DNA of 64,000 bases, taken from the NCBI RefSeq assembly GCF_001422485.1, contig NZ_LMNF01000001.1:1859375-1923374 (forward strand), given 5' to 3'. A program made the position numbers and the translations under genes. The DNA comes from Agreia sp. Leaf283. GTDB lineage: Bacteria; Actinomycetota; Actinomycetes; Actinomycetales; Microbacteriaceae. The notes beneath the pieces were generated by a model, which ran no database searches, was not told the origin of the DNA, and was given only the letters and a program-made list of their open reading frames with translations. Within the stretch, counting starts at the first letter, position 1, and every line of letters begins with the position of its first letter. This document shows positions 8,410-49,839 of this stretch, in pieces.

Positions 8410-8440
8410 GGCTCAGGGAATGGTTTCGTTCCCTGGGCCC
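8410..8440. terminator. Bidirectional hairpin between rlmB and the DUF4032 gene
   Basis: An 11-bp stem pairs 8410-8420 with 8429-8439 around an 8-nt loop (one G-T pair). It lies between two convergent genes, so it probably terminates both. There is no T tract. The right arm, TTCCCTGGGCCCGTCGAAGG, is a variant of the dispersed repeat found near 27.9, 34.4 and 48.5 kb. Confidence 0.6.
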
Positions 8441-27924: not shown

Positions 27925-28013
27925 GCTCCCAGAGCCTGTCGAAGGGCTCCGCGTTCCGTTCCCTGAGCCTGTCGAAGGGCTCCGCGTTCCGTTCCCTGAG
28001 CCTGTCGAAGGGC
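27925..28013. repeat. 33-bp tandem repeat (dispersed GTTCCCTGAGCCTGTCGAAGG family)
   Basis: About 2.7 tandem units with a 33-bp period (starting 27925, 27958 and 27991). Units 2 and 3 share GTTCCCTGAGCCTGTCGAAGG exactly and unit 1 differs at a few positions. Related copies occur at 8429-8450, 34381-34403 and, on the other strand, 48510-48577. Located just after the DUF3027 gene. Confidence 0.85.
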
Positions 28014-45376: not shown

Positions 45377-47371
45377 TCAGACCACCGAATAGTTCTCGGG
45401 GTCGAAGCGCGAGAGGCGTCGCTGGAAGGCGTAGGCGAAGTCGGGCCACAGCAGTGTGAGCCGCCCGCTGCGCTCGTCGACGTACCAGCTCTCGCAGCCG
45501 CCGGTGAGCCACACCGACGACGCGGCCTTCGCGTCGATCTCGTGGGTGTAGTCGTCTTGAGCCTCGAGAGACACGTCGAGGGCGTCGATGCCCTCCTCGC
45601 TGCGATGCTCGAGGGCCGCGAGCACGTAGTCGAGCTGCGCCTCGATCATCACGACGGCCGAGTTGTGGCCGAGGCTCGCATTCGGACCGTCGAGCACGAA
45701 CATGTTGGGGAAGCCGTGCACGGTCGTCGAGGCGTGCGCCCGCATTCCGGTGTTCCAGGCATCGGCGAGACGGATGCCGTCGGTTCCGAACGTGCGCGCG
45801 GCGAACGGCGGGCGGGTCGACTCGAAGCCGGTGGCGAAGACCAGCACGTCGAGCTCGACGCTCCGGCCGTCGGCCGACGTCGCGACGCTGCCCGAGACGG
45901 AGCGGAGCGCCGACGGTTCGAGCGTCACGGCGGGGGAGGCGAGCGCCGGGTAGTAGTCGTTCGAGATGATGACGCGCTTGCAACCGATCTCGTAGTCCGG
46001 CGTCGCAACGGCTTGCAGTGCGGGATCGGCGAGTTGCGCCTCGAGGTGACCGAGCGCGCGGTCGCGCAGCCGATCGATGTAGCCGGGCAGGCGCATCCGC
46101 TCGGCGAATGCCGTCTCGGCGCCCCAGAAGAGGTCGTCGCGCATCGCCGTCTGCGACGCCGGATCGGCCGCGAAGCCGGCCTGCTCGTCGGGCGAGTAGT
46201 TCCGGTCGGGCCGCGGCACCACATAGGGCGCGCTGCGCTGGAACACCACCACGCTCGCCGCGGTCTGCGCGAGCCGCGGAATGAGCTGCGCCGCCGACGC
46301 TCCCGTGCCGACCACTCCGACGCGCCGACCCTCGAGAGCCACGGAGTCGTCCCACGCCGAGGAGTGCATCACCGGTCCGGGGAACGAGTCGAGTCCGGGC
46401 ATGTCGGGCATGCGCGCATCCGACAGGCGGCCCGCGGCGACGATCAGCGTGCGGCACACGTAGTCGCCCGCGCCGGTGCGCACTTGCCAGCGACGATCGT
46501 CGGCGATCCAGCGCATCTCGAGCACCTCGGAGCCGAGCCGCAGGTGGCGCTCGAGGCCCTCGGTGCGCGCGGCATCGCGCAGGTAGCCATGGATCTCGGG
46601 GCCGCTCGCGAAGAAGCCCGACCAGTCGGGCTTGGGCAAGAACGAGAAGGAGTACAGGTGCGAGGGGATGTCGCACGCCACGCCGGGGTACACGTTGTCG
46701 CGCCAGGTGCCGCCCACGTCGTCGGCGCGCTCGAGGATCACGAAGGATTCCTCGCCGCGACGCGCCAGCCGGATGCCCGCGCCGAGCCCTGCGAACCCGG
46801 CGCCGACGATCACCGTGTCGACCTCGATCGTGCCGTCGAGCGAGGTGCGTGGGGCGGCGTTCCGGATGCATGTGGCAGCGACAGTCGACCGGGCCGTCTC
46901 CGGCGCGCGGTCGATTCCGGTGCCATCGATGAACTGTTCGATGAGGCTCAGGATTCGGGCCGGTTGGTCGCGCAGCGTGCGACGGTCGGCGCCGGTGGAC
47001 AGCATGAGAACGCGCGACGCGTCGATGCCGTTCGCACCCGCGTCGGCGGGCCCGGGATCGATGAGCACGATGCGCCCGACGAGCGAACCGTGGTGGCGTG
47101 CCGCTCTGATCGCCTCGAAAGAATGACCACCGATCGCCACGACAGTGGCGTCTCCGACGGTGTCAGCCAGACACTCGTTCCAGTCGATGGCGCGGCGGCC
47201 GGCGGGGTCGGGCACACGAATCGAGAGCACGTCGCGGGTGCGCGCCAGCATCGGCCGGAGGAAGTCGAACTCCTCGGTCGCTCCGCCACCCGGCCCGTGC
47301 AACAGCACGACGGCGGAACCCGACGTAGCGCTCGTAGCCCTCGCCGTGCGCGCCTCGTCGTGCAGAGTCAT
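45377..47371 (-). CDS. Fused alpha/beta-hydrolase-like and Baeyer-Villiger-type FAD monooxygenase
   Basis: 664 residues in two parts. Residues about 15-150 resemble a shortened alpha/beta-hydrolase (LLHGPGGGATEEFDF, then IGGHSFEAIRA), but the nucleophile elbow GxSxG is incomplete and no cap or catalytic His is apparent. Residues about 180-664 are a class B flavin monooxygenase. FAD site is VIVGAGFAGLGAGIRL, the Baeyer-Villiger fingerprint FPGPVMHSSAWD (FxGxxxHxxxW) is intact, and the NADPH site is VGVVGTGASAAQLIP. It would oxygenate a ketone, aldehyde or heteroatom using O2 and NADPH. Its ATG overlaps the fbiC stop (ATGA), so it is made with FbiC. Confidence 0.87.
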   Translation of the reverse strand: MTLHDEARTARATSATSGSAVVLLHGPGGGATEEFDFLRPMLARTRDVLSIRVPDPAGRRAIDWNECLADTVGDATVVAIGGHSFEAIRAARHHGSLVGRIVLIDPGPADAGANGIDASRVLMLSTGADRRTLRDQPARILSLIEQFIDGTGIDRAPETARSTVAATCIRNAAPRTSLDGTIEVDTVIVGAGFAGLGAGIRLARRGEESFVILERADDVGGTWRDNVYPGVACDIPSHLYSFSFLPKPDWSGFFASGPEIHGYLRDAARTEGLERHLRLGSEVLEMRWIADDRRWQVRTGAGDYVCRTLIVAAGRLSDARMPDMPGLDSFPGPVMHSSAWDDSVALEGRRVGVVGTGASAAQLIPRLAQTAASVVVFQRSAPYVVPRPDRNYSPDEQAGFAADPASQTAMRDDLFWGAETAFAERMRLPGYIDRLRDRALGHLEAQLADPALQAVATPDYEIGCKRVIISNDYYPALASPAVTLEPSALRSVSGSVATSADGRSVELDVLVFATGFESTRPPFAARTFGTDGIRLADAWNTGMRAHASTTVHGFPNMFVLDGPNASLGHNSAVVMIEAQLDYVLAALEHRSEEGIDALDVSLEAQDDYTHEIDAKAASSVWLTGGCESWYVDERSGRLTLLWPDFAYAFQRRLSRFDPENYSVV

Positions 47372-49839
47372 CGCCCGGCGGGCTCGAGCAGACTGCGCCG
47401 CTCTGAGATCGGCAGCTGCAGCCTCGAGGCAGGCGGCGCGTCGGCCCGGCGCGCGAACGCCAGCTGCTCGGTCGTCGGGGATCCGTAGCCTGTGGTGCGC
47501 TGACGTACACCGCGCCCGATCTCGGCGGCCGTGCGCTCGAGGTCGGCGATCGTGAGCGAGCGGTGCGCCTCGGCTCCTGCTTCGGGCCTGGCCGTTCCGT
47601 CGAGCAGCAGCCCGCCGAGGTCGTCGGCGCCGCCGCTCAGCACCGACTGGCTCTCGGCGAGTCCCAGCTTCGTCCACGCCGCCTGCACGTGGTCGATGCG
47701 GCCGTGCAGCATCAGTCGCGCCACGGCGTGCACCGCGCGTGACTGTCGTGCGTCCGGACCGGGCCCGGCGACCCGCGCGACCTGCGCCGGGGCATCCAGT
47801 CGCACGTAGGGCATCGGAATGAACTCGGTGAAGCCGCCGGTCTCGTCGTGCAGGCGCGCGAGCGATCGCAGGTGGGCGAGCTGCTGCCCGGGCGTCTCGA
47901 CATGGCCGTAGATCATGGTCGCCGTCGAACGCAGGCCCGCGCGATGCGCGGCCGTCATCGCGGCGATCCACTGGGACGCGGGCGGGTCGCCGCCCTCGCT
48001 GAGGATGCGCCGCACGTCGTCGTCGAGGATGCGCGCACCCGTGCCCGGCACGCTGTCGACCCCGGCGTCGCGGAGCGCAGACAGGTACTCGTCGAGCGGC
48101 AGCCCGAGGCGCCGGGCCCCGTCGGCGATCTCGGTCGGACGGTAGGCGTGCAGGTGCAGGCCCGGCTGGCGCGACCGGATGGCACGCACGATGTCGAGAT
48201 ATGCCGTGGCCGGCATGTGGGCGGGCACCGCGCCCTGGATGCACAGCTCTGTCGCTCCGAGCGCCGACGCCTCGTCGGCGAGATCGCCGATCTGGTCGAG
48301 GGTCAGGCTGTTCACCGTGTCGACTCCGTAGAGCGAGGAGTCGATGTTGCGGTTGATCACGAAGGTCACGTCGTCGCCGACTGTGTCGTGCCGGATGTCG
48401 TCGGCCAGGGAGGCGAGCGCGTCGAGTTCTTCGCCGCTCGCCTGGAGGAGGTCGAGGTAGTGGGCGTCGGAGAGGGCCGCGGGGGTGGTCGAGGCGGCGA
48501 GGAGGGCTGGGCCCATCGACGGGCTCAGGGAACGACTGCTCAGGGAACGGGGGCCCTTCGACAGGCTCAGGGAACGACGGGGCCACGGGCGGCCGACGAC
48601 GGGAGCGTCTTCCTGGGCGAGTCCGTTCGGCGCGGCCAGCGCCTCGACGTGGGGGCGGATGCGGACGTCGATCCACTGATCGGGGTCGCCGATGAACTGC
48701 GGATGCGCGGTGAGCCGCTCGCGCAGCTCGAATCCGGCGTCTCGCGTGAGCGCGGCGAGGGTGTCGAGCTCCGGCCAAGGGCGTTCCGGGTTCACGTGAT
48801 CGGCGGTGAGCGGGCTCACTCCGCCCCAGTCGTCGATGCCGGCGCGCAGCAGAAGGCCGAGCTCGTGCGCGTCGGTGAGGTTCGGCGGCGCCTGGATCGT
48901 GGCATGCGGCCCCATCACGACGCGGGCGACGGCCACGGCCGCGACGTACTCCTGCAGGGCCAGGTCGACCTCGTTCTGCATCGCCGTGCGCGGCTTGGCG
49001 CGGAAGTTCTGAACGATCGTCTCCTGGATGTGACCGTGCCGCTCGTGCGAGGCGCGGATCTCGAAGAGCGCCTCGGCGCGTTCGGCGTTGTTCTCGCCGA
49101 TGCCGAGCAGCACACCCGTGGTGAACGGAACCTTCGATCGGCCGGCGTCGTCGAGCACGCGCAGGCGCAGCGCCGGGTCCTTGTCGGGGGAGCCGTAGTG
49201 CACGCCGCCCTTCTCCGACCAGAGCCTGGTCGCGGTGGTCTCGAGCATCATGCCCATGGAGGGGGCGACGGGCCGAAGCGCCTGCAGCTCGCTCCACGAC
49301 ATCACACCGGGATTCAGGTGCGGCAGCAGCCCCGTCTCCTCGAGCACGAGAATCGCCATGGCCCTGATGTAGTCGATTGTCGACGAATAGCCGTGGGCAT
49401 CCAGCCATTCGCGCGCGACCGGCCAGCGGTTCTCGGGGCGGTCGCCCAGGGTGAACAGCGCCTCCTTGCAGCCGAGGGCCGCGCCCGCCCTGGCCACCTC
49501 GAGGATCTCGTCCGGCGACATGTAGATGGGCTTGCCCTTGGTGGCGAGCTTGTTGGGCGTCTCGACGAAGATGCAGTAGTGGCACCTGTCCTGGCAGAGG
49601 TGCGTGACCGGAATGAACACCTTCTTCGAGTAGGTGATGACGCCCGTGCGGCCGGAAGCGTCGAGACCCTCGTCGCGCAGCCGTGACGACACGGCGAGCA
49701 GCCGGTCGAGCTCGCCGCCGCGGGCCGAGAAGAGCAGCTCGGCGTCGGCCTGCGTGACCGTGTCGCCGCGCTCGACGCGCCCCAGCGCATCCTGGATCTC
49801 GTGCACGTCAGGAACGGAGGAGTCGTCGATCATCGGCAT
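47368..49839 (-). CDS. fbiC: FbiC-like CofG-CofH fusion with a degenerate CofH half
   Basis: 823 residues, aligned by eye with actinobacterial FbiC (7,8-didemethyl-8-hydroxy-5-deazariboflavin synthase, F420 pathway). The CofG half (about 65-410) keeps the radical-SAM Cys82-x3-Cys86-x2-Cys89 (LCQDRCHYC) and MLETTATRLW. The CofH half (about 455-810) is recognisable by GATELCIQG, PGTGARILDDDVRRIL, MIYGHVETP and LMLHGRIDHVQAAW. The segment that should hold its own CxxxCxxC is replaced by NRNIDSSLYGVDTVNSLTLD, about 14 residues shorter and without Cys. The linker (about 421-443) is encoded by a genomic repeat. The frame is intact. The second half therefore cannot bind its usual cluster. Confidence 0.88.
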   Translation of the reverse strand: MPMIDDSSVPDVHEIQDALGRVERGDTVTQADAELLFSARGGELDRLLAVSSRLRDEGLDASGRTGVITYSKKVFIPVTHLCQDRCHYCIFVETPNKLATKGKPIYMSPDEILEVARAGAALGCKEALFTLGDRPENRWPVAREWLDAHGYSSTIDYIRAMAILVLEETGLLPHLNPGVMSWSELQALRPVAPSMGMMLETTATRLWSEKGGVHYGSPDKDPALRLRVLDDAGRSKVPFTTGVLLGIGENNAERAEALFEIRASHERHGHIQETIVQNFRAKPRTAMQNEVDLALQEYVAAVAVARVVMGPHATIQAPPNLTDAHELGLLLRAGIDDWGGVSPLTADHVNPERPWPELDTLAALTRDAGFELRERLTAHPQFIGDPDQWIDVRIRPHVEALAAPNGLAQEDAPVVGRPWPRRSLSLSKGPRSLSSRSLSPSMGPALLAASTTPAALSDAHYLDLLQASGEELDALASLADDIRHDTVGDDVTFVINRNIDSSLYGVDTVNSLTLDQIGDLADEASALGATELCIQGAVPAHMPATAYLDIVRAIRSRQPGLHLHAYRPTEIADGARRLGLPLDEYLSALRDAGVDSVPGTGARILDDDVRRILSEGGDPPASQWIAAMTAAHRAGLRSTATMIYGHVETPGQQLAHLRSLARLHDETGGFTEFIPMPYVRLDAPAQVARVAGPGPDARQSRAVHAVARLMLHGRIDHVQAAWTKLGLAESQSVLSGGADDLGGLLLDGTARPEAGAEAHRSLTIADLERTAAEIGRGVRQRTTGYGSPTTEQLAFARRADAPPASRLQLPISERRSLLEPAGR
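48510..48577 (-). repeat. Dispersed repeat inside the fbiC linker
   Basis: On the minus strand GTTCCCTGAGCCTGTCGAAG is exact, preceded by CG rather than the usual context, and followed by a short and then a diverged copy (ending CCCGTCGATGGGCC). Translation gives a Ser/Leu-rich linker (RSLSLSKGPRSLSSRSLS). The same element is intergenic at 8.4, 27.9 and 34.4 kb. Confidence 0.85.

Follow-up and report, generated by a model that had tools for sequence, protein, structure and literature searches.

A cysteine-less CofH half of FbiC and an adjoining Baeyer-Villiger-type monooxygenase gene in Agreia and other actinobacteria: a possible oxygen-dependent variant of Fo synthesis

The stretch of DNA analysed here (64,000 nucleotides of Agreia sp. 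Leaf283, referred to as the window) contains an fbiC-like gene and its downstream partner, and both genes lie on the minus strand. The fbiC-like gene (47368-49839) encodes a protein of 823 amino acids in which a CofG half is fused to a CofH half lacking the radical-SAM cysteines. Its frame is uninterrupted from the ATG through the stop codon, and the whole protein passes the NCBIfam FbiC/CofGH model NF006687 (1067 bits, cut-off 1018), in agreement with the preliminary description of this locus, which had called the gene complete and in frame. The CofG half (48580-49839, residues 1-420, the border being approximate) meets the equivalog model TIGR03550 with 475 bits against a cut-off of 213. It has retained its CxxxCxxC cluster, as had also been claimed; the motif reads CQDRCHYC at 49573-49596. 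The linker between the two halves (48490-48579, with approximate borders) contains in-frame copies of a genome-wide repeat: the short sequence TTCGACAGGCTCAGGGA occurs in 247 copies in the genome, compared with 0 for the reversed control, and the copies at 48515-48533 and 48557-48575 are translated within the linker. Further copies in the window are located at 8428, 27925-28009, and 34381.

The Cys-less CofH half (47371-48489, residues 451-823) contains a CofH_C domain (PF19288, 39 bits, cut-off 27) and misses the CofH equivalog model TIGR03551, scoring 357 bits against a cut-off of 374. The place where CxxxCxxC should be is occupied by NRNIDSSLYGVDTVNSLT (48301-48354, residues 496-513), which has no cysteine and, in an alignment with intact relatives, is about 14 residues shorter than the same segment of those proteins. 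Both observations had been made in the preliminary description, whose range of residues 493-510 pointed to the right stretch with a numbering off by about 3, the NRN of this stretch starting at residue 496. It had also allowed for an intact triad elsewhere in the CofH half; there is none, C533 being the sole cysteine across residues 451-823. The FbiC of Agreia sp. Leaf283 therefore lacks the CxxxCxxC that a radical-SAM CofH requires, and it has only one of the two functional radical-SAM sites by which FbiC is defined. In the AF2 model of the Cys-less half (mean pLDDT 89) the radical-SAM barrel fold is predicted to be kept, the best match in PDB being MqnE with a TM score of 0.76.

The partner gene (45377-47371) encodes 664 amino acids, comprising a hydrolase-like N-terminal part and a Baeyer-Villiger-type flavin monooxygenase (FMO). 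The stop codon of fbiC and the start codon of the partner gene overlap in the sequence ATGA (47368-47371), which suggests translational coupling of the two genes. The N-terminal part (46838-47371, approximately residues 1-178) is degenerate and alpha/beta-hydrolase-like, with no match to any Pfam family. The FMO domain (45380-46837, from about residue 180) has its nearest relatives among the steroid, cyclohexanone, and phenylacetone monooxygenases. The hallmarks of type I Baeyer-Villiger enzymes are the dinucleotide-binding motifs, the FxGxxxHxxxW fingerprint, and an active-site arginine. In 23 aligned partners these motifs and the active-site arginine are invariant or nearly so, and the motifs were also checked by alignment of the window FMO to steroid monooxygenase. 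By these motifs, the partner is a Baeyer-Villiger-type monooxygenase, predicted to oxidize a ketone to an ester.

The same loss of cysteines was found in five congeneric genomes, where FbiC is 80-94% identical, and in named Agreia genomes; thus a read or assembly error, for which the preliminary description had left room, is ruled out in practice, and a sequencing artefact was rejected on the same grounds. Among 299 genomes searched in the family Microbacteriaceae, an FbiC match is present in 69, and the protein is full-length in 64 of them. By a CX3CX2C regular expression applied to the aligned segment, the CofH cysteines are absent from 47 of the 64 proteins and intact in 17, and the CX3CX2C of CofG is kept in all 47 proteins of the Cys-less type. 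The five remaining FbiC-positive genomes, with FbiC in pieces, were excluded: in G155 and G099 the CofH is Cys-less and the FMO gene adjoins it, and in G054, G198, and G177 the CofH type was left unclassified. A profile search of genome_contigs with the Cys-less CofH confirmed 215 relatives, of which the best 80 were kept. All 80 are Cys-less (six of them, undecided by the regular expression, were settled separately), a count that says little about frequency because these are the best 80 of 215 to a Cys-less profile. By name, the same best 80 of 215 loci belong to 11 actinobacterial families, apart from four unplaced records and one that is labelled Acidobacteriaceae; Agreia pratensis and Subtercola boreus are among the carriers. 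Of these, 40 of the 80 named loci belong to Microbacteriaceae and overlap with the genomes of the family survey, and the two counts are thus not additive. The contig labelled Acidobacteriaceae (L139), which carries a Cys-less FbiC and an FMO, looks like misbinned actinobacterial DNA. Finally, a class sample of 40 loci was hand-picked for spread from 203 of 296 matching genomes, a few of the loci being picked because a short frame hinted at the loss; it contains 5 Cys-less loci, three from one genus and one from Microbacteriaceae, and 35 intact ones. The loop that replaces the cysteines is hypervariable, from a few to about 50 residues, and the Cys-less CofH half is alignable throughout, with a mean column identity of 51% and 53% in two alignments. 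Hence the Cys-less CofH is an old and widespread family, neither an accident nor an error, and the loss is found in many soil and plant bacteria.

In the tree of 94 CofH domains, constructed with the loop columns removed, one branch (SH-aLRT 100) parts 52 Cys-less from 42 intact rows, and the family-only tree of 64 rows, with the loop columns retained, has the same split with support 100/100. The CofH and FMO trees are unrooted and have no outgroup, and the 94-domain and FMO trees are based on hand-picked subsets; since the cysteines define radical-SAM enzymes, we read the split as a cysteine loss that happened once. Comparison of the 42 intact and 52 Cys-less rows revealed 64 CofH positions common to both types (conserved in at least 95% of the intact and 90% of the Cys-less rows), and 42 positions conserved in intact CofH and lost in the Cys-less rows, mostly in or near the cluster loop. 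The GGIHP stretch, which by analogy with other radical-SAM enzymes we take to be SAM-binding, is largely lost, with G96, I97, and P99 gone. At ten positions the Cys-less CofH has changed to a different conserved residue; among these positions, S126 has become R and D206 has become E in all 52 rows, E306 is replaced by G in 96%, and R310 by P in 92%. Such newly fixed residues argue for a new job rather than decay.

The pattern of selection was estimated by comparison of Agreia sp. Leaf283 with the five congeners, the segment borders being approximate by a few codons. The dN/dS ratio is 0.04-0.13 for CofG and 0.12-0.28 for the Cys-less CofH, the latter similar to that of the partner FMO (0.13-0.29). 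It amounts to 0.29-0.66 for the hydrolase-like part of the partner gene, 0.14-0.67 for the 19-codon loop replacing the cysteines, and 0.4-1.4 for the linker (19-27 codons). Thus the Cys-less CofH half is under purifying selection: its scaffold is retained, the radical machinery is lost, and something new is fixed.

The FMO gene is a constant companion of this form of CofH. Neighbours were counted by tblastn, since gene calls from the GC content of codon positions missed some genes. In 46 of the 47 Cys-less family loci the FMO gene comes next after fbiC in the same orientation, at a distance of 0 to 1.2 kb from the match to fbiC, and the wider gaps contain a hydrolase-like stretch in the loci inspected. 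At the 47th locus (G116) the contig ends 79 bases past the fbiC match, and the FMO of this genome (L292 in the tree), encoded from base 305 onwards on a different contig, groups with the linked FMOs. The FMO is likewise next downstream in all 80 of the best 80 of 215 Cys-less relatives and in all five Cys-less loci of the hand-picked class sample. It is found beside none of 53 intact loci (17 from the family, 35 from the class, and one from Nocardia aurantiaca), 48 of which have 1.5 kb or more of sequence on the downstream side; the intact locus L227 of the metagenome bin G304 has no FMO within its 1.5 kb. The FMO as an ordinary neighbour of any fbiC was therefore rejected. In the FMO tree, one branch (SH-aLRT 100) separates 73 linked rows from 19 unlinked rows, the latter being the higher-scoring ones among the unlinked FMOs. 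No one-frame fusion of CofH and FMO was detected among 110 loci scanned by motif.

Ester-making Baeyer-Villiger enzymes often follow an alpha/beta-hydrolase gene. A separate gene between fbiC and FMO matches Pfam Abhydrolase in one locus (L093), and a hydrolase gene in the same place was read by eye in three others (L092, L094, and L065). In the three unlinked loci inspected (L273, L281, and L283), which encode close relatives of the FMO, the FMO gene follows an alpha/beta-hydrolase gene, identified by Pfam for the first two, as expected of enzymes making esters. Near the FMO of L273 and L281 there are also genes, some of them identified by eye, for a cyclase-like protein and a short-chain dehydrogenase; the genomes of all three FMOs have no FbiC match. 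The substrates of these three enzymes might hint at the substrate of the CofH-linked FMO.

Outside Microbacteriaceae, 21 genomes were searched whole with an intact FbiC as the query. CofG is a separate gene in seven of them (two of Kineococcus, two of Pseudonocardia, and one each of Saccharopolyspora, Actinoplanes, and Williamsia) and lies on another contig in four of the seven; the Cys-less CofH still adjoins the FMO. In Williamsia and Kineococcus, CofG is on the far side of the FMO. The 19 CofG stretches that were checked, including both fused and separate ones, all retain their cysteines. The FMO belongs with CofH rather than with CofG, and their association appears to reflect one ancient event with long retention through rearrangements. 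At that, all Cys-less rows group together, so that the co-occurrence does not represent many independent tests. Two of the 21 genomes, N. aurantiaca and the bin G304, have an intact CofH as well. Each combines an intact FbiC with a stand-alone Cys-less CofH that has an FMO (L203 is intact and L159 Cys-less in N. aurantiaca; L227 and L192, respectively, in G304, a bin that may be mixed). No intact CofH was seen in the other 19 genomes, a few of which, such as Actinoplanes, gave additional weak matches.

The genome of Agreia sp. Leaf283 is nearly complete (99.97%, 4 contigs). The preliminary description had suggested that a separate CofH or second FbiC might exist in it, or that the strain has lost F420. 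No second CofH or FbiC was found in the genome: there is a single FbiC match and a single CofH_C match, the latter being the window gene, and the other PF04055 matches with E 0.001 or better were read by eye as MoaA, MiaB, HemW, LipA, and an Rv2578c/SplB-like protein. Loss of F420 is unlikely, as FbiA, FbiB (the CofE part), and FbiD, for which a search had been suggested, are all present above their cut-offs within 4.3 kb on another contig. An LLM oxidoreductase encoded in the same 4.3 kb passes the F420 family TIGR03557; its score with an FMN-named family is higher but stays below the cut-off of that family. No gene of this genome scores above the family cut-off for an F420-dependent NADP reductase.

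A match to FbiA is present in 46 of the 47 Cys-less family genomes and in 67 of the 69 FbiC-positive ones, and in three loci (L101, L050, and L075) fbiC and the FMO gene are clustered with FbiA and an FbiB-like gene, FbiB being identified by eye. However, 64 of the 131 FbiA-positive family genomes, for example G006, G016, G025, and G040, have no match to FbiC, CofG, or CofH at E 0.001. At two loci of such genomes (L119 and L121) an FbiD-like gene, named by eye, still adjoins FbiA. The FbiA-positive, FbiC-free genomes look like Fo auxotrophs fed by neighbours or owners of an unknown Fo synthase; Fo crosses membranes, according to excerpts of a 2021 review (PMC8498797). Fo uptake is thus possible in the family, which weakens the argument from FbiA alone. 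The FMO as an explanation of these genomes was rejected, since only eight of the 64 reach E 1e-90 or better with the FMO profile; three of the eight (G119, G232, and G283) fall in the unlinked FMO group, and the other five score below 400 bits.

In the ordinary pathway, as outlined in the same excerpts, CofH cleaves tyrosine by means of a SAM radical and the p-hydroxybenzyl moiety joins 5-amino-6-ribitylaminouracil, and then CofG performs the ring closure to Fo (PMC8498797). A CofH without the cysteine loop should make no SAM radical, and the FMO probably supplies the missing chemistry. With moderate confidence we propose that the Cys-less CofH acts as a cluster-free scaffold and that the FMO replaces the CofH step in a variant Fo synthase; we infer that the product of the gene pair is Fo. 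If the FMO takes over the supply of the 4-hydroxybenzyl unit, Fo requires one radical-SAM step, not two. The broader proposition, namely that a second, O2-dependent route to Fo has been assembled from a Baeyer-Villiger monooxygenase and a retired radical-SAM domain, with one origin and a present distribution over many actinobacterial families, seems to us evenly poised between right and wrong. Repurposing, one of the options of the preliminary description, comes nearest to this reading, though both the old widespread family and the flavin monooxygenase link had been missed. Its premise that both clusters are needed for Fo is the textbook rule, which the Cys-less family seems to break.

The chemistry might proceed as follows. 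The Cys-less CofH would bind 5-amino-6-ribitylaminouracil and receive an activated aromatic unit with no radical involved, and the coupled FMO would provide this unit using O2 and NADPH. The candidate substrate of the FMO is a ketone or aldehyde that carries a 4-hydroxyphenyl group and derives from tyrosine, the first guess being 4-hydroxyphenylpyruvate. Baeyer-Villiger insertion of oxygen next to the benzyl carbon would yield a 4-hydroxybenzyl ester, which could collapse to a p-quinone methide; as an electrophile, the latter is equivalent to the p-hydroxybenzyl radical made by ordinary CofH. Guided by the Cys-less CofH, the p-quinone methide would add to C5 of the uracil; CofG, a normal radical-SAM enzyme, would close the ring to Fo, and FbiD, FbiA, and FbiB would convert Fo to F420. 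Benzyl acetate is formed by a like logic in the case of phenylacetone monooxygenase, which is among the nearest relatives of the FMO with a solved structure. This exact choice of substrate and reactions is doubtful and is offered as a tentative scheme, and no paper that connects 4-hydroxyphenylpyruvate in this way with a Baeyer-Villiger enzyme was found in the part of the open-licence literature available to us.

Several observations do not fit easily with the replacement of the CofH step by the FMO. An intact FbiC beside the variant would be redundant in N. aurantiaca and G304, the window has a degenerate form of the hydrolase part, and the many FbiA-positive family genomes that have no FbiC match indicate that some relatives seem to get Fo by another route or do without it. 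The failure to find an F420-dependent NADP reductase above its cut-off in this genome and the higher score of the LLM gene with an FMN-named family also count against the proposal. The presence of both CofH types in N. aurantiaca and G304, as if their products differed, together with the new invariant residues of the Cys-less CofH, would agree with a different deazaflavin: the FMO and the Cys-less CofH would attach another or a further oxidized aromatic unit, CofG would cyclize it, and FbiA and FbiB would convert the resulting modified Fo to an analogue of F420. A precedent is the distinct 3PG-F420 known in other bacteria, mentioned in the excerpted review (PMC8498797). We consider this rather unlikely, for CofG, FbiA, FbiB, and FbiD pass the ordinary family models, and in 19 of the 21 outside genomes no intact CofH is seen beside the variant.

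It is also conceivable, at a somewhat lower level of belief, that the locus has left F420 metabolism altogether, so that CofG, the Cys-less CofH, and the FMO serve the synthesis of some other metabolite and Fo is obtained from neighbours. The 64 FbiC-free genomes with FbiA and the membrane permeability of Fo (PMC8498797, in excerpts) speak for such a possibility, whereas the occurrence of FbiA in nearly all (46 of 47) Cys-less genomes, the clustering of the pair with FbiA and an FbiB-like gene in L101, L050, and L075, and the strong conservation of CofG, evident from its dN/dS, speak against it. A very improbable alternative is that CofH is an inert scaffold, the FMO an unrelated neighbour, and the CofH product is made by another radical-SAM protein: further radical-SAM proteins are indeed encoded in the genome, but by eye these belong to the MoaA, MiaB, HemW, LipA, and Rv2578c/SplB-like groups, and an unrelated neighbour would hardly be adjacent in all of the best 80 of 215 loci, from 11 named families. 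There is virtually no chance that the gene is a decaying pseudogene or that the deletion arose in sequencing or assembly, given that the cysteines are missing from 47 of the 64 full-length FbiC proteins of the family and from 80 of the best 80 of 215 relatives; the pseudogene was rejected in view of the open frames and the purifying selection seen in dN/dS.

Synthesis of Fo by a universal mechanism with two radical-SAM domains in all studied F420 producers is described in the excerpts of the 2021 review (PMC8498797). We found neither a cluster-less CofH nor an O2-dependent Fo synthase described in the open-licence literature, as far as its text was available. If replacement of the CofH step by the FMO is the true reading, the Cys-less family would be, to our knowledge, the first known exception to two-radical-SAM Fo synthesis. 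It would also show a radical-SAM enzyme retired yet kept as a scaffold, with a flavoprotein doing the chemistry, and might give a more air-tolerant start to the production of F420, for which low titres (PMC11917521, in part) and oxygen-sensitive Fo synthases (PMC8498797, in excerpts) are known problems. Genomes annotated with FbiC are not all alike in this respect, and N. aurantiaca and G304, which have both CofH types, provide a natural test for identity of the product.

The window gene resembles the known actinobacterial FbiC in the domain order, the fusion, the CofG site, the 64 shared CofH positions, and the company of FbiA, FbiB, and FbiD. It differs in that the CofH half lacks CxxxCxxC and most of GGIHP and falls below the equivalog cut-off, and the Cys-less form is paired with an FMO gene. 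The partner shares with type I Baeyer-Villiger enzymes the dinucleotide-binding motifs, FxGxxxHxxxW, GTWxxxxYPG, and the conserved arginine in GCKR, but forms its own group tied to the Cys-less CofH, and its FMO domain has about 485 amino acids compared with 537-573 in the majority of its PDB relatives of the Baeyer-Villiger type. Of the enzymes of the futalosine menaquinone pathway, MqnE has the closest solved fold, and the C-terminal domain is of the CofH/MqnC kind; however, MqnE and MqnC use their cluster, whereas the Cys-less CofH has no cysteines to hold one. Finally, HemF and HemN are O2-dependent and O2-independent enzymes for one and the same step. Under the proposed scheme the Cys-less CofH and its FMO would be a similar case, in which an oxygen-using enzyme replaces a radical-SAM one, with the difference that here the old radical-SAM domain stays on, cluster-free, as a partner.
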